Source: a virus | IMG/VR virus record: IMGVR_UViG_3300035701_000291 | Location: 1 to 23,459 of that record | Length of the DNA stretch: 23,459 bases | Reading direction: 5' to 3' (one strand) | Shown: one piece after another, positions 7,140-16,321 of the stretch | Position numbering within the stretch: the stretch's first letter is position 1 | Layout of the letters: each line of letters begins with the position of its first letter | Notes under the pieces: generated by a model | What the model was told of the DNA's origin: nothing | Databases searched by the model: none | Seen by the model: only the letters and a program-made list of their open reading frames with translations | Program-made: the position numbers and the translations under genes

Positions 7140-8324
7140 TTGAAGGACTGGCGCCGCAAATACGAGTACGGTGTCACTCGAGGAGAGATCCAGGCTTTTG
7201 TTGATGAGAATTTATGTGTGAGACAGTTCCTTGCGAAGTATTCTGAGGCAAGCAAGTACAATTTCAGTCGGTATCTATGTATGTTTTTCAAGTGGATGAA
7301 GATCCGGAAGAGTCTCGAGTTGAGGCCTGATGAATTTCTACAAGCGATCTGTGAGAAGCGTCAGAAAACCTCAGTTCAAGAGCGCTGCTGGGGACGTAAC
7401 CTGGTCCTCGAATTCACCAGGGATAATCCTGATTTGAAAGGCAAATCTCACAGCCTTCTCTACGGTGCGATGTTCAAGAGTGTCAACTTGTTCTGCAAGG
7501 CTCATGAGGTTGATTTGACGATTGCTCGAGGGGCCTATGGCGAGAAGAAACATCGCAAGTATCATCCGGCTCCGTATACTATCGCTTTGGCAAAGAAAGT
7601 GTTGGCCGTCGTCAATCAGCGGGATCGTGCGATCTGCATGTTGGGTCTTCAGACCGGGCAAAGTGTGACGCAGGTCCTGGACGATATTAATGGTCAGTAC
7701 GATTACATAGTACGAATGATCCACGAAGGAAGACGGAGGATCCGCTTTGATTTTGCCGAGCGCAAGGGAAACGATTTTCAATATTACACGTTTTGTTCTC
7801 TTGATGCAATAACGGAAATTCAGAAGTGGCTGCCTATTCGCAAGCGATGGCTTAACGGTCGAAAGAGCCCATACCTGTTCATCAAACGAGATGGCGAAAA
7901 GTTGACGCCTGCCTCCTGGAGAAGTCCCTTCAGAGAGCATTTGCAGCGTCACGGCGTCTATAAGGGGCCTTTCTCAGTGATTTTTCACATGTTCCGGAAG
8001 ATCTTCGAGTCTGAGGCGAGCCCTCCGGACCGGGGCATCAGCAAAGACTACGTTCGGTTCATGCTGGGTCACTCCGTCGATGATGTGAATGGAGATCAGC
8101 TTGATATCCCTGGAGGCATTTACGATCAGGCGCCGTTCACTCATCCCGACGTCGTTGAAAGAGAATACAGCAAACTAGAGCCCTACCTTAACATTTTTTC
8201 GCAGCGGACGGGCGAGGATCCCGGTCTTGCTTTGAAAACGAAGTTTGCGAAAACGTTAGACCGGTATTTTGAAGAGAACCCTGGAAAGGAAGAGAAGTTT
8301 CAGGAATTCCTCAAAGGGCTTTAA
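7140..8324 (+). CDS. int: Tyrosine recombinase / integrase
   Basis: A 394-residue protein with TTG at 7140 behind GGAG at 7128-7131. The N-terminal half (about 1-135) is a helical SAM-like core-binding domain. The catalytic domain starts near residue 145. Visible catalytic elements are a beta-hairpin Lys (ERKG, K209), H283-x-x-R286 in FHMFRKIFE, G310-H311-S312 in FMLGHS, and a candidate nucleophile Y328 in GGIYDQA. The first catalytic Arg, normally in T-G-L-R-x-S-E, is not seen: the segment reads LQTGQSVTQVL, with Ser at the Arg position. The protein should integrate the viral genome by site-specific recombination if active. Its stop overlaps, tail to tail, the 3' end of the minus-strand surface protein gene by 14 bp. 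Confidence 0.85.
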   Translation: MKDWRRKYEYGVTRGEIQAFVDENLCVRQFLAKYSEASKYNFSRYLCMFFKWMKIRKSLELRPDEFLQAICEKRQKTSVQERCWGRNLVLEFTRDNPDLKGKSHSLLYGAMFKSVNLFCKAHEVDLTIARGAYGEKKHRKYHPAPYTIALAKKVLAVVNQRDRAICMLGLQTGQSVTQVLDDINGQYDYIVRMIHEGRRRIRFDFAERKGNDFQYYTFCSLDAITEIQKWLPIRKRWLNGRKSPYLFIKRDGEKLTPASWRSPFREHLQRHGVYKGPFSVIFHMFRKIFESEASPPDRGISKDYVRFMLGHSVDDVNGDQLDIPGGIYDQAPFTHPDVVEREYSKLEPYLNIFSQRTGEDPGLALKTKFAKTLDRYFEENPGKEEKFQEFLKGL

Positions 8325-9558
8325 AACGAGCCCTACGCCGACTGTAGATTATCACGAACAATGTCAGAGGGATGACTGCAAAGAGGAGCCCAGGGGGAAA
8401 TTCTGGAATCACCGTTATTGAACTTGTGAGAATGGGTGAAATCAGGCCTGCCTGATCTCTGATTTGTGCGTAAACGGTTTTTTCGCCTTGGTCATCCGTG
8501 AGATTCCACGGCATATTCGTGCTGAACGGCTGCCAGGCAGACCAGGTGACATTATCATTGCTAAATCTGGCTTGAATAATCCCTGAGGTGGCGTCTTGGG
8601 CCGAGAACTGTATGCTGACTGAGGTCGAGTTTGTGTAGGTTGCGTTTGCGTTGATTTGGATGCTGCCCGCTGGCGGTGTCTTGTCTATTTTGACGTACTT
8701 GGTTTTCGCTGACTCAATGTTTCCAGTATTGTCCTTGCTCCAATATTCAAGCAGGTTGTTGGCGCCTTCAGTCGTGATGTGAGGCATCCCATTTGAACTG
8801 ACGTTTTGGGTGGGCCCTCCGTTGACTCTATAGAAAGTTTCTTGAACCCCTGATCCGGCGTCTGTAGCCGTCAAGTTTATCATTATATCGACAGTTTGCC
8901 AAGAGCCATCATACTCAGCCGTCGTGACCGGAGCGGTGTCATCTTGGAAAACTGCGTGTAAGGTGGCGTTTTCAGTCATGATTAGAGTGATCGGAGACAT
9001 CGAGCCTACATATAATCCGTTGAGTTCCCAGTAGAAGCTATATCCAGGGTTTGTGTGGGCTGTCACTTGAGCCGGGAAGCCCATTGAATATTGATAGTTT
9101 CCAGTGCTTGGAACGGTGTATCCTCCTGATGTTGAAGAGATACTAAGTGTCACATAGGAAATTGATTCTAGGTCTTCGTAGATGCTGATAGCATAACTTT
9201 GAGTGTTCGCGGTTGAGATTTCCAGATAGAAAGTCCCTGCCTTGTTATGAACAAAGGTCCATCCGATTGTATCGGCCGACCCCATCTTAAAGACGCTCGC
9301 GACATACGAAGCAGTCTCGCCTTGCGGATAGGCAAAAATGGCTAAGGCCGCCAGGTCCGGATAGTTGGGATCTGGCTTGTATGCCCAGAGGATCATCCAT
9401 TCTTCATGGTTGCACACAAAATAATTAGTGGTGTAGGTTTCTGAGCCGGAGCCACTGAAACTTGTTACTTCGCTCCAATTTGAGGCTTGAACTGTTGAAA
9501 TCAGGGCGATAACGGTTGCCACTATTAAAAGGGCGAAGAATTTTCTCGTTCGCTTCAC
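8311..9558 (-). CDS. Secreted cell-surface protein with PEF-CTERM-like anchor
   Basis: A 415-residue protein with GTG at 9558 and AAAGGAG about six bases upstream on the minus strand. Residues 1-25 are a signal peptide (basic start, hydrophobic core ending near QAS). Residues about 30-145 are an unknown beta domain. Residues 145-205 resemble the small beta-grasp repeats of bacterial and archaeal surface proteins (YWELNGLYVG and a segment ending in ATLHAVF). Residues 206-295 are an OmpL47-like Ig domain (DDTAPVTTAEYDGSW, then YWSKDNTGNIE, then VKIDKTPP). A second Ig-like domain follows. The C-terminus is IPEFP, about 17 hydrophobic residues and RRRARFKAL, the layout of PEF-CTERM archaeosortase substrates. 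It is opposite in strand to its neighbours, so it is probably a moron altering the host surface, for example in adsorption or superinfection exclusion. Confidence 0.8.
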   Translation of the reverse strand: MKRTRKFFALLIVATVIALISTVQASNWSEVTSFSGSGSETYTTNYFVCNHEEWMILWAYKPDPNYPDLAALAIFAYPQGETASYVASVFKMGSADTIGWTFVHNKAGTFYLEISTANTQSYAISIYEDLESISYVTLSISSTSGGYTVPSTGNYQYSMGFPAQVTAHTNPGYSFYWELNGLYVGSMSPITLIMTENATLHAVFQDDTAPVTTAEYDGSWQTVDIMINLTATDAGSGVQETFYRVNGGPTQNVSSNGMPHITTEGANNLLEYWSKDNTGNIESAKTKYVKIDKTPPAGSIQINANATYTNSTSVSIQFSAQDATSGIIQARFSNDNVTWSAWQPFSTNMPWNLTDDQGEKTVYAQIRDQAGLISPILTSSITVIPEFPPGLLFAVIPLTLFVIIYSRRRARFKAL

Positions 9559-10218: not shown

Positions 10219-10383
10219 GTGAAAAACGAAGAAACGACCTCTCAAGTCCGCGTCGAACTTGAAGGTGAATTGCAACGGCGTTTCGGCATTCTCAAGAAAT
10301 ACTATGGCCTAGAAAACAACACTGAACTTGTCCGAGTTCTCATCAACGACAAGTACAAGCAAATGTTTCCAAAGGAGGCTTAG
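10219..10383 (+). CDS. Small RHH (CopG/Arc-like) regulator
   Basis: A 54-residue protein starting at GTG 10219, with AAGGTG at 10207-10212 as ribosome-binding site. It reads as one beta strand (TSQVRVELEG), helix 1 (ELQRRFGILKKYYG) and helix 2 (NNTELVRVLINDKYKQMF), the ribbon-helix-helix fold that binds DNA as a dimer through the strand. It is paralogous to the divergent gene ending at 9907, with the same N-N-x-E-x-V-R-x-L-x-x-x-K-Y core. Its operator is probably the inverted repeat at 10201-10217. It is the first gene of the accessory operon, and its last codons contain the AAAGGAGG (10371-10378) serving the next gene. Confidence 0.8.
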   Translation: MKNEETTSQVRVELEGELQRRFGILKKYYGLENNTELVRVLINDKYKQMFPKEA

Positions 10384-10386
10384 GTT

Positions 10387-11334
10387 TTGGTTGACGAGTA
10401 CGATCTCAGCGTTTCCAGCAGAAGTCTAGGCAAACTATATCCGATTTTGAAGGATAAGGCGGGCAACATGATTGATGATTTTCATCGTCAGAACGCTGAC
10501 CCTGAATGGCCTTGCGTGACTGTTGAAAGCGTGGATACTCCTGTGAAGTTGGAACTGGCACGTTTGGCTACTAACTTTTGCAGACGCGAGGTTCCTGATA
10601 GTGAAATGACTCAGGGTATCGCTTTCTTGATTAAGAACGGTTTGAAACCTGAAGAGATTTCGGACCAGACAGGAATCAGTGTTAGAACGATTTACCGTCA
10701 CATGCCTCAAACTGAGCAGGGTAAAGCAATGAGTGAAGCTAAATCGGAAATCGTAAGACAGGATTTGACACGTGTCATAACATCTAGTACGATTCAAGAT
10801 ATTGTTTCTTGTGACCGCTGCCACGTCTCCACATCCACACCCGTCGAATGGCACAACCATCAACTCTGCGAACAATGCCACAAAAAGGCCTTAGCGAATC
10901 CTGACGCTTTCAACAGTTACTTCGGTTATCAGAGCAAGAAACCTGAACCCAAAGTCGTCTTAACCACCAACACGGTCAGAGCTCTTGAGAAATGGGAAGA
11001 TCGCAAAGCCCACATGAGCCCTCAACACTCGAAAATGGAAGGCATCGTAATCGCTTCATTGATTGAGTCAGGCGTCACAGGCATCATTCAAGACCGTCAT
11101 TTCTGTGTTCAAGAAACGATTCCCGACATTTACTTGCCAGCACAAAACCTTGCGATTTACTTGGACGGCGAAGCGGTTCACAATGGCAAACAAGACCGAG
11201 ACGAACAGCTCCGCGAGTTGTTAACGAAGCGGCATAGCGTGACAGTTCTGAGTTTCAATTACGATTCAACCAGCCAGAAAGAAGTTGACCGCGTCACGAA
11301 AGAAATCTTGGCAGTTGTCAAGGTGGAGGCTTAG
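10387..11334 (+). CDS. ParB-like / HTH / zinc finger / Vsr-like nuclease fusion
   Basis: A 315-residue protein with TTG at 10387, eight bases after AAAGGAGG. Domains in order: a degenerate ParB/Srx-like segment (residues 12-70, LGKLYPILKDKAGNMIDDFHR, where active homologues have DGFHR); a helix-turn-helix (about 86-107, PEEISDQTGISVRTIYRHM); a zinc-binding knuckle (C142, C145, C161, C164 with nearby His); and a C-terminal PD-(D/E)XK-type domain (about 212-300). The last resembles Vsr/DUF559 nucleases: helix Glu E218, PD at 246-247 (PDIYLPAQNLAIYLDGEAVH), D260, E262, H265, then RDEQLRELLTKRHSVTVLSF. A paralogue of the ParB-HTH part lies at 12534. A sequence-directed nicking or cleaving role is inference. 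The fusion is unusual. Confidence 0.75.
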   Translation: MVDEYDLSVSSRSLGKLYPILKDKAGNMIDDFHRQNADPEWPCVTVESVDTPVKLELARLATNFCRREVPDSEMTQGIAFLIKNGLKPEEISDQTGISVRTIYRHMPQTEQGKAMSEAKSEIVRQDLTRVITSSTIQDIVSCDRCHVSTSTPVEWHNHQLCEQCHKKALANPDAFNSYFGYQSKKPEPKVVLTTNTVRALEKWEDRKAHMSPQHSKMEGIVIASLIESGVTGIIQDRHFCVQETIPDIYLPAQNLAIYLDGEAVHNGKQDRDEQLRELLTKRHSVTVLSFNYDSTSQKEVDRVTKEILAVVKVEA

Positions 11335-11337
11335 GCT

Positions 11338-11538
11338 TTGAAACTATACCATATTGAAGTCGCTAACATTGACTTGTCAAATCATCATGACTTCATTCTT
11401 GCCAAGGATTTTGATGAGGCTTATGTTAAAGCCCTGAAATTGGTTGAAAGCTACAAAACGGAAGTTTCGAAAAACGCTGAACTAGTAACTGTCGAGTTTG
11501 AGAACGAAATCACTGATGTGGAGGCTTCTGATGAGTAG
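11338..11538 (+). CDS. Hypothetical 66-residue protein
   Basis: TTG at 11338 is eight bases after AGGTGGAGG (11321-11329). The layout is a strand (KLYHIEVANIDL), FILAKDFDEAYVKALKLVES as a helix, and a second strand (AELVTVEFENEI) with an acidic tail. This beta-alpha-beta pattern is common in small phage accessory proteins and shows no catalytic residue. The junction GGAGGCTTAGG-(T/C)TTTG before the start is nearly identical to the one before 10387. It is the first of six consecutive mini-genes reaching 12321. Confidence 0.6.
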   Translation: MKLYHIEVANIDLSNHHDFILAKDFDEAYVKALKLVESYKTEVSKNAELVTVEFENEITDVEASDE

Positions 11539-11620
11539 GTCGGACGTTTTCTTTGCTCGTTGCATCGAGATTCTTGAGGCTAAGTTGAGAAAGAAGAGCC
11601 CGGAGGCTCCGAAAACATGA
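11531..11620 (+). CDS. 29-residue mini-protein
   Basis: ATG 11531 overlaps the stop of the previous gene and follows GTGGAGG (11517-11523) by seven bases. The product is a short amphipathic helix (DVFFARCIEILEAKLRKK) with a Pro-containing tail. It resembles the start of the 48-residue protein at 16476 (FYIKRIEQILKRKL). Its stop overlaps the next ATG (ATGA). The good ribosome-binding site and tight coupling make it likely to be translated. Confidence 0.5.
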   Translation: MSRSDVFFARCIEILEAKLRKKSPEAPKT

Positions 11621-11766: not shown

Positions 11767-11873
11767 CGGTTTTTGAATGTCATAAGTGTATAGGGCTCGC
11801 CTGCAAGCAACAGGGCGTTTGCGATCAGTATGCGCGCATGAAGGCTGAAAAATTGAAGGAGCTGCTCTCTTAA
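11763..11873 (+). CDS. 36-residue Cys4 mini-protein
   Basis: ATG 11763 overlaps the preceding TGA. The product begins FECHKCIGLACKQQGVCDQY, with four Cys in a C-x2-C-x4-C-x5-C spacing, then a basic helix. Four Cys in 15 residues strongly suggest a zinc knuckle. A similar mini-gene with four Cys lies at 16622. One GGGCTC motif lies in it at 11793. The stop TAA overlaps the next ATG. Confidence 0.55.
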   Translation: MTVFECHKCIGLACKQQGVCDQYARMKAEKLKELLS

Positions 11874-11989
11874 TGCGGCTGCCAAAACTTCTCAGAGTGC
11901 TTTTGGCTCCAGTCCTAGTTTGTTTCGGAGTCCTCGGCATCATAATGGTCGTTGTCGGCGCCCGTAAAAAGGAGTCTGCGAAGAAATGA
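11873..11989 (+). CDS. 38-residue single-span membrane protein, copy 1
   Basis: ATG 11873 overlaps the TAA of the previous gene, with GAAGGAG at 11855-11861. The product is MRLPKLLRVLLAPVLVCFG followed by VLGIIMVVVGA and a basic tail (RKKESAKK): one hydrophobic helix with basic ends. A second copy lies at 14658-14795, with identical LVCFGVLGI and MVVVGARKKES segments and a 20-base identical DNA stretch. Such small membrane peptides can act as pinholins, toxins or membrane tethers. No function can be assigned from sequence. Confidence 0.65.
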   Translation: MRLPKLLRVLLAPVLVCFGVLGIIMVVVGARKKESAKK

Positions 11990-12533: not shown

Positions 12534-13694
12534 ATGCCCTCTATTTTGAAGACACCTAATGATTTCAGTAAAATGATTGCTGACGTTCTCACGTTCAAAC
12601 TTGAAGCCGTAGAAGAATTCTTTGACGTGGGCGAGGATAAAGAAGGATTTTTCTATGCAACATTACGGCCTAAGAAATGGTTAAGTGACCTCCAATTCAG
12701 GGGTATGTGTGGGCTCGTTCGAGACTTAGGAGGAGACTATGTTAAGGGCTTCAAAATGTTCAGGGTGCCTGGTCCTTTGGCGAAAAAGAGCCCTACACCG
12801 ATTCAGGAAGAAACTCCGAAAGTTGCTGCGGGCTCTTCTGAAGCGAGCCCTAAACCGTCTTCAATTAAGATCAGTCAATCAAGTGAGCTCTGCATAGGGG
12901 CTCTTTCTGAAGATGAAGACGTCAAAGCGCTGAGGGGCTCGTCTAAGAAGATCGGCTCTCTCTATCCGGTTCTTATGACCAGGAGCGGCGAAGTGATCGA
13001 TGGTTTTCATCGACTCAAAGCGGATCCTGATTGGCCTAAGTTCACGGTTGAAGGCATCGAGGATCCGGTGCAACTGGCTAAGGCTCGTCTGATCTCTAAT
13101 GAACGACGGAATGTCTCACCGGAAGAGAAAGGCCGATTGCTCCGAGAAATCATTGTCTATACAAATTGGAGCATGAAGCAACTTGCCGAGGAACTCGGTT
13201 GGGGCATCAGCACAGTCTACCGCTATTTGCCTGATGACTTGAAAGATCAGACTAAAGCAGCCGCTGGGGCTCTTGGGGGCTCAGATTCTGCTCTAACCCT
13301 TAGAGCACCTGATGGGAAACCTGTTTCAGTTGAAACTGTGAAGCCTCAAGATATCACTTATGGTAAGGCTCGTGAACTCCTTGACACTCCTGCAGGCCGT
13401 GAAGTTCTCATTGACGCGGTAAAAGAGGCTGTAGCGAAGGGTGAAATTCCAGTTTCTCTCGATAAGGAAGAGCCCTTGTTTGCTGAAGGCATCGCAACGG
13501 TGGAAGACGAACATGAGCCCCTGGAAGGTTCTGAGAAATCGGGTGTGGGCTCGTTTGAAACTGTTCACCGTCACAAAATTGAAGGCACTCAAGTCGGCGA
13601 GTTCACATGCACTGAATGTAATCAACATTTCTTCATCGACCACATTTCCGCTGACAAACATAGGCTCACAAAAGTAAGGAGCGCTCCAGAATGA
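12534..13694 (+). CDS. ParB/Srx-like protein with HTH and C-terminal zinc finger
   Basis: A 386-residue protein with ATG directly after the previous TAA. Residues 1-80 form an unknown domain (GFFYATLRPKKWLSDLQF, then GGDYVKGFKMFRVPG). A low-complexity linker (81-118) follows. The ParB/Srx-like core is at 119-200: IGSLYPVLMTRSGEVIDGFHR holds the DGFHR box, and LISNERRNVSPEEKGRLL matches the ParB N-x-x-R-x-x-x-(S/T)PxE box. A helix-turn-helix is at 209-232 (WSMKQLAEELGWGISTVYRY). A helical region and a C-terminal C2H2-like finger (C359, C362, H370, H376) end the protein. ParB family proteins bind DNA and hydrolyse CTP or cut DNA. Here partition or regulation is inference. No ParA is seen. The gene carries 11 GAGCCC/GGGCTC sites, mostly in linkers. 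Confidence 0.75.
   Translation: MPSILKTPNDFSKMIADVLTFKLEAVEEFFDVGEDKEGFFYATLRPKKWLSDLQFRGMCGLVRDLGGDYVKGFKMFRVPGPLAKKSPTPIQEETPKVAAGSSEASPKPSSIKISQSSELCIGALSEDEDVKALRGSSKKIGSLYPVLMTRSGEVIDGFHRLKADPDWPKFTVEGIEDPVQLAKARLISNERRNVSPEEKGRLLREIIVYTNWSMKQLAEELGWGISTVYRYLPDDLKDQTKAAAGALGGSDSALTLRAPDGKPVSVETVKPQDITYGKARELLDTPAGREVLIDAVKEAVAKGEIPVSLDKEEPLFAEGIATVEDEHEPLEGSEKSGVGSFETVHRHKIEGTQVGEFTCTECNQHFFIDHISADKHRLTKVRSAPE
12711..13552. repeat. Dense cluster of GAGCCC/GGGCTC motifs
   Basis: Eleven copies start at 12711, 12788, 12830, 12845, 12898, 12935, 13267, 13277, 13470, 13515 and 13547. Less than one is expected by chance in 842 bp under equal base use. Orientation is mixed. They fall in all three codon registers and mostly encode Ser/Pro/Gly/Ala/Glu-rich linkers of the ParB-like protein. 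Confidence 0.75.
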
Positions 13695-14347
13695 GTGAAC
13701 ATAAATTCACTTTGCTTGACTGCTTCTGCGGGATGGGAGGAGTTTCAGACGGTTTTGCGTTTGAAGGTTTCGATGTCATGGGCACAGACATCGTTGACGC
13801 GCCTAAGATGTTGGGTTACAAGCATCATTTCATTCAAGCGAATATGTGTGACTTGAAAGGTGAAGCCTTCAAAGGTTACGATGTGATCTGGGGAAGTCCA
13901 CCATGTAGAGACTTCTCACAAATAGGTCTACTCTATGGCAAAAGATGGCGGAATCCACCTCACCCTGAAAATGGACTTGTTTTGATTGACTGTTTTCTGG
14001 ACTTTGTGAAAGATGCAGCCCCTCATTTTTGGATAATGGAGAATGTGGCTAATCTCAAGAAATTCTTCAAGAAGTTCCAACCGAGGACAGAAGGATTCAT
14101 CACTTACGGAAAACGCCACGTCTTTTACGGGAACTACCCGCTTTTCCTCATGCCACGTGACATGCGAGTAAAAATCCGTTGTAAAAATAAGAATGGGCGC
14201 GATCAACCAAGCATGAAGTATTTGGAACCAACGCCATGTCATAATAGAGCAATTCAGTCGGCGCAACATGCTAGGATTCCTTTGGCTTGTTCTAGAGCTT
14301 TTGCCAAGGCCTGTAGGGAGCAACTCGAAATCGAGGTTTCTGTATGA
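13691..14347 (+). CDS. C5 cytosine DNA methyltransferase
   Basis: A 218-residue protein with ATG 13691 overlapping the parB-like stop. Motif I is LLDCFCGMGGVSDGF (8-22). Motif IV is GSPPCRDFS (68-76) with catalytic C72. Motif VI is WIMENVANL (114-122). The C-terminal RIPLACSRAFAKAC looks like motif X. The usual motif VIII and target recognition domain are short or absent, so the enzyme is compact compared with typical Dcm-type proteins of 300-400 residues, as seen in several viral orphan methyltransferases. It should methylate cytosine at an unknown site. No cognate restriction gene is adjacent, so protection of viral DNA is the simplest role. A Vsr-like nuclease domain lies in the same operon at 10387. 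Confidence 0.85.
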   Translation: MSEHKFTLLDCFCGMGGVSDGFAFEGFDVMGTDIVDAPKMLGYKHHFIQANMCDLKGEAFKGYDVIWGSPPCRDFSQIGLLYGKRWRNPPHPENGLVLIDCFLDFVKDAAPHFWIMENVANLKKFFKKFQPRTEGFITYGKRHVFYGNYPLFLMPRDMRVKIRCKNKNGRDQPSMKYLEPTPCHNRAIQSAQHARIPLACSRAFAKACREQLEIEVSV

Positions 14348-14661
14348 GTGATCGTGGGCTCTACAAGAAAGTGCCTTTAGCCAAACGGGTTTGCAGTTGG
14401 ATTCACTGTCAAGAACCGATTGAACGCAACCTCATTCGATCAAAAGATGGGAGACTTTGGCATTACGGTTGCTATAACGATGCAAGGGACACCCACTATC
14501 AATGCATAGAATGTGTCGCCACGTTCGATGGAACAGAAGTCACTTTCGTAGAAGACAACTCAAGCTTTGGCGATGATTTTCGTCGACAATGGAAACCGCA
14601 GTGCCCAAGTTGCGGCGCCAATCTCAGAAGTCTCGCAAGTCAAGGGGGAATCGAATTTTGA
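14344..14661 (+). CDS. Zinc-finger protein, 105 residues
   Basis: ATG 14344 overlaps the methyltransferase stop by ATGA. The protein has three Cys pairs or knuckles: C17 and C22 (VCSWIHCQEPI) with H40 and C43 (WHYGC), C54 and C57 (QCIECV), and C87 and C90 (QCPSCGANL). The first resembles half of a treble-clef finger, and the last two form a zinc ribbon. A nucleic-acid or protein-binding role is likely. It may help the very short methyltransferase upstream in target recognition, but that is speculation. The next mini-gene overlaps its stop. Confidence 0.65.
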   Translation: MSDRGLYKKVPLAKRVCSWIHCQEPIERNLIRSKDGRLWHYGCYNDARDTHYQCIECVATFDGTEVTFVEDNSSFGDDFRRQWKPQCPSCGANLRSLASQGGIEF

Positions 14662-14795
14662 GATCAATGCGGTTGCCGAGATTTTTCAGAGTGCTTCTTA
14701 GTCCCGTCCTAGTTTGTTTCGGAGTGCTGGGGATTGTGATGGTTGTTGTCGGTGCACGGAAGAAAGAGTCTCATCTCTTGGAGGTTGAACAATGA
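14658..14795 (+). CDS. 45-residue single-span membrane protein, copy 2
   Basis: TTG 14658 overlaps the previous stop (TTGA) and follows AAGGGGG by nine bases. ATG 14667 gives the same start as copy 1 (MRLP). The frame is open back to 14589, but that part lies inside the zinc-finger gene. The product MRLPRFFRVLLSPVLVCFG continues VLGIVMVVVGARKKES and is about 80 percent identical to copy 1 at 11873 over the shared length. It has one hydrophobic helix with basic ends and a longer acidic tail. The stop overlaps the ATPase start. Confidence 0.65.
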   Translation: MRSMRLPRFFRVLLSPVLVCFGVLGIVMVVVGARKKESHLLEVEQ

Positions 14796-16321
14796 AGTTA
14801 CGTCTGTCCCCAGAATTTACCATCGATACTGATGATTACAAGCGTGAAGGCTTACGCTTCAGTATATTAGCTATGAGTGGTCACGGCAAGAGCAATGCAG
14901 GTGCCGACATCGTTGAAGACGTCTTGGATAATCATGCGCAAGTAATCATTATCGAGCCTATTCCTGAGTGGCATACGTTGAAAGCCCGGTACAATAATGT
15001 GGTCGTTGTGGGTGGGCCTTATCAGGATCTCCCGCTTGAGCCGGCGTTTGCTCATGAATATGTCAAAGCTGCTTTGGAGAAGGGCATCAGCCTTGTTGTC
15101 AATGTGAGCGATATCGAAGATGAAGGAGAGCAGATCAAGTTTGTCTCTACGTTTTTGTGGAATCTTTACCGCCTCGAGCAGAAGTACAGGCGCGTGCTCT
15201 TCCTGGTCCTTGAAGAGGCAGATACTTGGGCGCCGCAGATGTGGGACCAAATCACCAAACAGTCTCTGTCTCGAGTGAGCCTTATCGCAAAACACGGTCG
15301 TAAGATCGGCATTTTCCCGATTCTCATCAGTCAGCGTCCTGCAGATCTTCATAAGAGCCCGCTGAGTCAGTGCAACATCAACTTGTTCGGCAAGTTCACG
15401 AGTCCTGCAGACTTGGATCCAAAGACTGGCCTGATGTTTCTCGTGAAAAAACAGCATCTGAACATTACTGAAGAGCAGATTATGAAGTTGCCTACGGGCT
15501 CGTTTGTGGTCAGTCACAAGGGCGGCGTCGACACGGTTGCAGTTCGAAAGCGTTTGTGTCCTCACGGCGCTGATACGCCTTTGATTGAGCCGAAGCCTTT
15601 CACTGCGGATCTGTCGCGAGCCCTGGGCGGTCTCCAGGAAGAGATTGCGAAGGCAGTCGCTGCTAAGAAAGAGGAAGAATCAACTGTCAAGCGCCTCGAG
15701 AAGCAGGTTGAAGATTTGAAGAAGCGGAATGTGCAACTGGAGGAGAAGGCGAACATCAAGCTTTCAGTCAAAGAAATGATGACAGGCGCCGGTTCTGAAC
15801 GGGTAGGAGTCATGACTCCTAAGCTTTCTGAGGATGTTGAGAGAAGGCTTTCTTTTCTTGGCGAGCAAGTCCATGAAAAGGACGTTCGCATCAAATCGCT
15901 TGAGACTCTTAATGAAAGATTTGCGAAAGAAAACAACTCGTTTGTTAAACTGAAGGAAGGCATTTTAGGGCTTTTACCTACGCCGAGCCCTATTACATTA
16001 CCTACATCGAATACATCGATTGGTTTGCAGCGTTCTGTGACAGTTGTTGATGTGGCTTCTGCCGAGAAATTTATCACTGTCAGCACTGAAAACATGCGTG
16101 GTAAACTCCTTGCTCTCGCTAAGAAAGGAAAACTTGATTCATGGAAGCAACTAGGCGAGATTGTGAAGGCTGTTGAAGAGGAGCATTGGAGTGCAACGCC
16201 TCAAGAAGTCAATAATGCGCTTAACGATCTGGCGAAAGAGGACCTGATTGCTAAGAAGCATTCAGACCGCAACTACTACTGTCTTGCGCAAGGCGTCAAA
16301 TTTAAGGAGACCTTATCTTGA
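14792..16321 (+). CDS. HerA/FtsK-like ATPase with coiled coil and winged helix
   Basis: A 509-residue protein with ATG 14792 overlapping the previous TGA. Walker A is AMSGHGKSNAG (27-37, K33, S34). The segment IIIEPIPEW (52-60) is typical of HerA. Walker B is VLFLVLEEADTW (135-146) with E141/E142. LISQRPADLHK (178-188) is the sensor region. Residues about 280-330 and 345-395 are coiled coil, and about 430-500 look like a winged helix (MRGKLLALAKKGKLDSWKQL, then EVNNALNDLAKEDLI). HerA proteins are hexameric DNA translocases, usually paired with NurA nuclease, which is absent here. A role in DNA transport, segregation or defence evasion is possible. Packaging is unlikely because a separate terminase exists. 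Confidence 0.8.
   Translation: MKLRLSPEFTIDTDDYKREGLRFSILAMSGHGKSNAGADIVEDVLDNHAQVIIIEPIPEWHTLKARYNNVVVVGGPYQDLPLEPAFAHEYVKAALEKGISLVVNVSDIEDEGEQIKFVSTFLWNLYRLEQKYRRVLFLVLEEADTWAPQMWDQITKQSLSRVSLIAKHGRKIGIFPILISQRPADLHKSPLSQCNINLFGKFTSPADLDPKTGLMFLVKKQHLNITEEQIMKLPTGSFVVSHKGGVDTVAVRKRLCPHGADTPLIEPKPFTADLSRALGGLQEEIAKAVAAKKEEESTVKRLEKQVEDLKKRNVQLEEKANIKLSVKEMMTGAGSERVGVMTPKLSEDVERRLSFLGEQVHEKDVRIKSLETLNERFAKENNSFVKLKEGILGLLPTPSPITLPTSNTSIGLQRSVTVVDVASAEKFITVSTENMRGKLLALAKKGKLDSWKQLGEIVKAVEEEHWSATPQEVNNALNDLAKEDLIAKKHSDRNYYCLAQGVKFKETLS

Follow-up and report, generated by a model that had tools for sequence, protein, structure and literature searches.

We found that a gene carried by a tailed virus encodes a protein in which a ParB/Srx-like core, a helix-turn-helix (HTH) and a four-cysteine knuckle are fused to a predicted nuclease domain. 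The DNA that we analysed (the window; 23,459 bases) is a virus record from IMG/VR, with genes for a terminase large subunit, a portal and tail proteins. Both halves also occur in other viruses, and we describe a conserved family whose two components, a ParB-like DNA binder and a homing-type nuclease, are joined or separate. We put at about even the chance that the two halves make up a site-directed DNA endonuclease module, of one or two chains, most likely used in conflict.

The gene (Table 1) is an ORF of 315 codons that begins with TTG and is preceded by GGAGG at 10374-10378. The encoded protein contains D30-D-F-H-R34, an HTH at about residues 71-106, C142/C145/C161/C164, and, in the C-terminal part, P246-D247, L259-D-G-E262, H265 and R271-DEQLRELL. 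An earlier reading made from the sequence alone (the sequence-only reading) had given these coordinates and motif positions, and the ORF and its translation agree with all of them. The domain order that it described also holds, and is repeated in six other viral proteins.

The gene is real and is under purifying selection. An IMG/VR scan identified an orthologue that is 83% identical (L001, in record G001 from a related virus) and one that is 69% identical (L007, in record G002). The dN/dS ratio was about 0.20-0.26 for the whole gene and 0.12-0.19 for the nuclease domain, and between the window and L007 the N-terminal part had diverged faster than the nuclease part. Based on the 83% identical orthologue, the low dN/dS and the same order of domains in six other viral proteins, the fusion is more than a chance event.

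Table 1. Features in and around the fusion gene (positions in the window).
Feature	Position	Strand	Remarks
RHH-like ORF, 54 aa	10219..10383	+	just upstream of the nuclease gene; positional counterpart L009 2237-2413
17-nt direct repeat, left copy	10374..10390	+	contains ribosome-binding GGAGG
Protein with ParB/Srx-like core, HTH, 4-Cys knuckle and predicted EDxHD/DUF559 nuclease	10387..11334	+	315 aa; ORF, orthologues, dN/dS
ParB/Srx-like core, residues 7-67	10405..10587	+	box II-like D-D-F-H-R; box III-like N63-F-C-R-R67
Helix-turn-helix, residues about 71-108	10597..10710	+	HTH families; L001 orthologue
Four-cysteine knuckle, C142-x2-C145 ... C161-x2-C164	10810..10878	+	Cys conservation
Predicted Vsr/DUF559 (EDxHD-type) nuclease domain	10993..11331	+	residues 203-315; E218, D247, D260, H265, D272
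17-nt direct repeat, right copy	11325..11341	+	15/17 identical to left copy
66-aa ORF	11338..11538	+	downstream of the nuclease gene; missing from L001
Small conserved ORF (MSRSDVFF...)	11531..11620	+	directly after the RHH gene in nuclease-less L009
ParB-like protein without nuclease, 386 aa, DGFHR	12534..13694	+	the window virus's own

The C-terminal domain is very probably a PD-(D/E)XK-type nuclease of the Vsr/DUF559/EDxHD group. The Pfam cut-off for DUF559 (PF04480; 20.6 bits) was passed by the fusion proteins L001 (28.0) and L033 (28.1) and by a stand-alone nuclease from record G005 (32.8). Two other fusions were just under it (L025, 20.4; L030, 19.0), and the window's own copy was below the reporting cut-off. 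The first three orthologues gave weak matches, all to PHROG 559, and searching the sequences of the PDB with nuclease profiles returned nothing. Vsr families were far under their cut-offs (best TIGR00632, 16.5 bits vs 97.85; PF03852, 19.7 vs 27).

We carried out the structure prediction and fold search that the sequence-only reading had proposed, using the L001 domain, which is 90% identical to that of the window. The AlphaFold2 model, made from six sequences, had a pLDDT of 75.5 and a pTM of 0.69, with the order helix-strand-strand-helix-strand-helix. The structural evidence is that of this domain; a full-length prediction from three sequences reached a pLDDT of 41. The best match in the PDB was the catalytic domain of I-Bth0305I (3R3P; Foldseek E 4.6e-3, prob 1.00). 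Comparison with that domain (VIA) gave a Z of 10.3 over 94 residues, at 2.5 A and 22% identity, clearly above the other matches. The second match, Vsr (1vsr; Z 8.3), was near the level at which common folds appear. Matches in BFVD were DUF559 proteins and homing endonucleases. The PD-(D/E)XK assignment made earlier is thus borne out by the DUF559 matches in orthologues and by the predicted fold.

The putative active site is conserved. Six aligned fusions and both stand-alone forms of the nuclease all have E218, D247, D260, H265 and D272, and four of these (E218, D247, H265 and D272) occur in EDxHD order, a comparison with 3R3P that is by order only. The sequence-only reading had named D247, D260 and E262 as the active site. 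The two aspartates are invariant, but position 262 is variable (E, P, K or V among the members). D-G and V-H are separated by one or by two residues, depending on the member, so the window's extra residue there is not a sign of decay.

The DNA-binding half is related to a ParB-like protein of the same virus: residues 7-118 are 35% identical to the product of 12534-13694 (E 1e-21). None of the 10 records has a match of this core to PF02195 (ParB_N) at E 10. By hhalign, a profile of the core matched three PF02195 proteins from these records (E 4.3e-6, prob 87%, with small profiles), with G-F-H-R aligned to a G-E-R-R box and N-F-C-R-R aligned to an E-N-x-Q-R box. By profile comparison, the core is a predicted member of the wider ParB/Srx superfamily, with boxes II and III in register. 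In addition, a protein of Acidianus two-tailed virus 2 that is annotated ParBc matches the core of L025 (E 3e-3). The sequence-only reading had noted DDFHR and called the core degenerate. The motif is there, but it is one substitution that is private to the window copy; five other fused members have DGFHR and one (L041) has SGRHR. The L001 orthologue is over the HTH_7 cut-off (31.1 bits vs 23.8). The four knuckle cysteines are invariant in the six aligned fusions, and the seventh also has four. Another N-terminal domain, W-x-x-KA-x-RYL...GG-x-Y, is common to L030:852-1226, L025 (residues 1-75) and the window (12534-12800), with pairwise hhalign E from 3e-3 to 2e-5; some viruses have it fused to ParB-like proteins, and in G008 it is separate.

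A search for the same architecture, also proposed earlier, found six further proteins in other viral contigs, making seven fusions with that of the window. Besides the two orthologues these are in G004 (L025), G008 (L030), G009 (L033) and G007 (L041). Records G004 to G008 were reached with the profile of the ParB-like core and G009 with that of the nuclease. In an alignment of six of the seven fusions, the core, the four cysteines and the nuclease motifs are all conserved; L041 has S-G-R-H-R and keeps the nuclease motif. In all, eight other viruses carry both halves, as one protein or two. G005 has a ParB-like protein without a nuclease and, elsewhere, a stand-alone nuclease of 115 aa (E 1.3e-14) that is ~1.6 kb upstream of the terminase genes. 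In G006 a stand-alone nuclease is some 870 bases downstream of the gene for the ParB-like protein, between that gene and one for a HerA-like protein; it had an E of 6e-11 against a profile built without it, and the next unrelated ORF scored 6 bits.

The arrangement of the two halves differs between viruses. A ParB-like protein without a nuclease coexists with the fusion in the window, G001 and G007; in G007 the fusion is a second gene beside it. In G004 and G008 the fusion is at the core-matching gene itself, and in G002, G004, G008 and G009 no other protein with this core was found. The nuclease, fused or separate, is present in 9 of the 10 records that carry the ParB-like core. It is present in some form in 5 of the 6 records reached through the core (G003 lacks it), a small, related sample for which the query included fused proteins. 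A tree of the cores mixes fused and unfused forms, with modest supports, and repeated fusion or splitting of core and nuclease is suggested. We found no copy of the architecture by tblastn against 50,697 phage records, and a search of plasmids gave weak partial matches only. The sequence-only reading knew of no described family with this order of domains, and our literature search found no paper mentioning DUF559 together with ParB. Both parts are of known kinds, and their combination was found neither in the 50,697 phage records nor in the literature search.

We also compared the surroundings of the gene. The window and G002 have only this gene in common by blastn (72% over 911 bases). Between the RHH and MSRSD genes, the window has the nuclease gene and the 66-aa ORF, and L001 has the nuclease gene alone. 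In a close relative of the window virus (L009 in G003), the MSRSD gene comes directly after the RHH gene and the nuclease is absent. This junction is an apparent empty site; the G003 record may be incomplete, and a copy of the nuclease elsewhere is possible. The ends of the gene overlap a direct repeat (Table 1). Among 766 other start/stop pairs in the window, one matched its level of identity (15/17), and part of the repeat is ribosome-binding site.

The terminase large subunit has psiM2 ORF9, a methanogen virus protein, as its best NCBIfam match, and the integrase has the archaeal XerA model, with a score far below the cut-off; the host of the window virus is thus likely archaeal. Scans of genome contigs with the nuclease and with the integrase found no relative. 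Several other features of the window were observed. Positions 12764-14661 (most of the gene for the ParB-like protein, a C5 methyltransferase and a Zn ORF) are 95% identical to G001, whereas the integrase and nuclease are near 81-84%, which suggests a recent exchange. The methyltransferase (13691-14347) is short (218 aa) and matches positions 1-117 of 324 of PF00145 only; another match, G008:C1:21165-21908, is in two pieces, one with an in-frame TGA. A gene for a 38-aa microprotein with a single membrane span is present twice (11873-11989 and 14666-14771, a 106-nt repeat, 79% identical) and is conserved in L005 and L009. On the minus strand, 8311-9558 encodes a surface-type protein with a PEF...RRR end and an OmpL47-like insert; L001 and L009 have shorter counterparts of 157-160 aa. 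The product of 14792-16321 is a HerA-like ATPase with a winged-helix-like tail and a homologue in one other record of the ten (G006). We dropped the notion of a HerA-ParB-nuclease system, as this ATPase is in 2 of 10 records only.

Our preferred explanation is an endonuclease directed to sites in competing DNA. The ParB/Srx-like core, HTH and zinc knuckle would bind specific DNA, and the C-terminal EDxHD/Vsr-type domain, with its conserved residues and fold, would make a metal-dependent cut. The two halves would act as one functional module, encoded as a single chain in seven cases and as two chains in two. It may target competing or superinfecting elements with ParB-type sites and cut their DNA. 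The co-occurrence of core and nuclease, the conserved active-site residues and the presence of the gene in unrelated viruses count for the module. A role in conflict is favoured because the nearest described systems, Odn, GmrSD and the ParB-like DNases with Osa, serve as models; we hold cutting of competing DNA to be slightly less than an even prospect. More specifically, and more tentatively, archaeal tailed viruses may possess a ParB/Srx-directed EDxHD nuclease system, of one chain or two, with which they cleave rival viruses or plasmids at their replication or partition sites. Several findings count against the preferred explanation. In four records the fusion is the sole protein found with the core, which would suit a central function of the virus as well as it suits a weapon, and with an own ParB-like protein that is 35% identical in the binding part, self-cleavage needs explaining. 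The window protein itself is under the DUF559 cut-off, and we found no iteron or centromere-like array in the window.

The main rival is a function on the virus's own DNA: the ParB-like part would mark an origin, pac or a recombination intermediate, and the nuclease would nick or cut the marked site in replication, resolution or packaging. The nuclease in 9 of the 10 records with the core, the four records in which the fusion is the sole protein with it, and the positions of the stand-alone nucleases near terminase genes (G005) and beside a HerA-like gene (G006) are consistent with this. However, G003, a close relative, is without the nuclease and its flanks are closed up (with the caution about that record given above), the gene passes between unrelated viruses, the HerA-like ATPase is found in two of ten records, and the location of the nuclease is not constant. 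We consider a role on own DNA unlikely, though less so than the remaining alternatives. One of these is a free-standing homing endonuclease; such an enzyme would promote the spread of its own gene and use the ParB, HTH and Zn modules as DNA-binding domains. The closest solved fold is that of a homing endonuclease, the gene-sized insertion has an apparent empty site in L009, and an elongated architecture of several modules is typical of phage homing enzymes (PMC3943268). But homing needs a shared target, and the flanks in the window and G002 have no DNA similarity; the nuclease part occurs at other loci without the binding part (G005, G006), and there is no RNA family (Rfam) or intron close to the gene. 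Two copies in unrelated flanks make homing less likely, and we regard it as improbable. Of the roles put forward in the sequence-only reading, a DNA-targeted nuclease is kept as the best reading, and homing is weakened by the unrelated flanks of viruses that have the gene in common.

That reading had also raised a Vsr-like mismatch role, given a C5 methyltransferase in the same operon; the protein would then act in T:G mismatch repair as partner of the methyltransferase at 13691-14347. The Vsr fold match (Z 8.3) and the co-directional methyltransferase in the window and G001 would fit. Yet a PF00145 methyltransferase is present in only 3 of 10 records, the Vsr models score far under cut-off, and we know of no Vsr proteins with a ParB/HTH part. 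This role was not borne out, and with the methyltransferase in so few records we think it highly improbable. It is only slightly less improbable that the protein is a DNA-binding regulator or partition protein with an inactive nuclease domain. Nuclease-less ParB-like proteins coexist in related viruses, and Vsr-fold proteins can lose activity, e.g., FASTKD4 (PMC11879112); against this, the E, D, D, H and D residues are invariant and the nuclease domain is under stronger constraint than the N-terminus.

We compared the preferred reading, a site-directed endonuclease module used in conflict, to described systems. The DNA-binding-domain/nuclease chimeras are a known kind, to which the window protein adds a putative, little-described DNA-cleaving module. 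I-Bth0305I and other EDxHD homing endonucleases have the same catalytic fold and a nuclease tethered to several DNA-binding modules. In contrast to I-Bth0305I, the proteins here have a ParB/Srx-like core, no sign of flank homology between copies, a separate nuclease gene in some viruses and a probable archaeal virus host. DUF559 and Vsr proteins are alike in that three members pass the DUF559 cut-off and the Vsr fold is matched; they differ in the fusion to ParB-HTH-Zn, the inconsistent C5 methyltransferase partner and the low Vsr scores. ParB, Spo0J and KorB likewise have G-x-x-R box II and N-x-x-R-R box III-like motifs followed by an HTH, whereas the core here has no PF02195 match, no box I strand and a nuclease attached.

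ParB-like DNases recur in conflicts of mobile elements, Osa among them (PMC5512222). In GmrSD, a ParB/Srx-fold domain is coupled to a nuclease, in one chain or two, and phage DNA is cut (PMC4619093). The fold with its DG-x-x-R motif and the one- or two-chain arrangement are as here. GmrSD has DUF262 and HNH domains of its own but lacks an HTH and a zinc knuckle, serves in bacterial defence and depends on UTP; neither DUF262 nor DUF1524 (the GmrSD domains) is among the Pfam matches of the fusion proteins. Odn of phage ICP1 consists of a homing-type nuclease and a DNA-binding domain that is 42% identical to that of the satellite's RepA, and cuts the satellite origin (PMC8263062). Both are accessory chimeras of a homing-type nuclease and a binding domain common to a replicon protein (42% for Odn, 35% here). 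Odn consists of RepA_N and GIY-YIG/T5orf172 and the window protein of ParB-like and EDxHD parts; unlike with Odn, the matching ParB-like gene is in the same virus. The family would extend nuclease chimeras of the Odn type to probably archaeal viruses, and offers a way to study how viruses direct nucleases to particular replicons.
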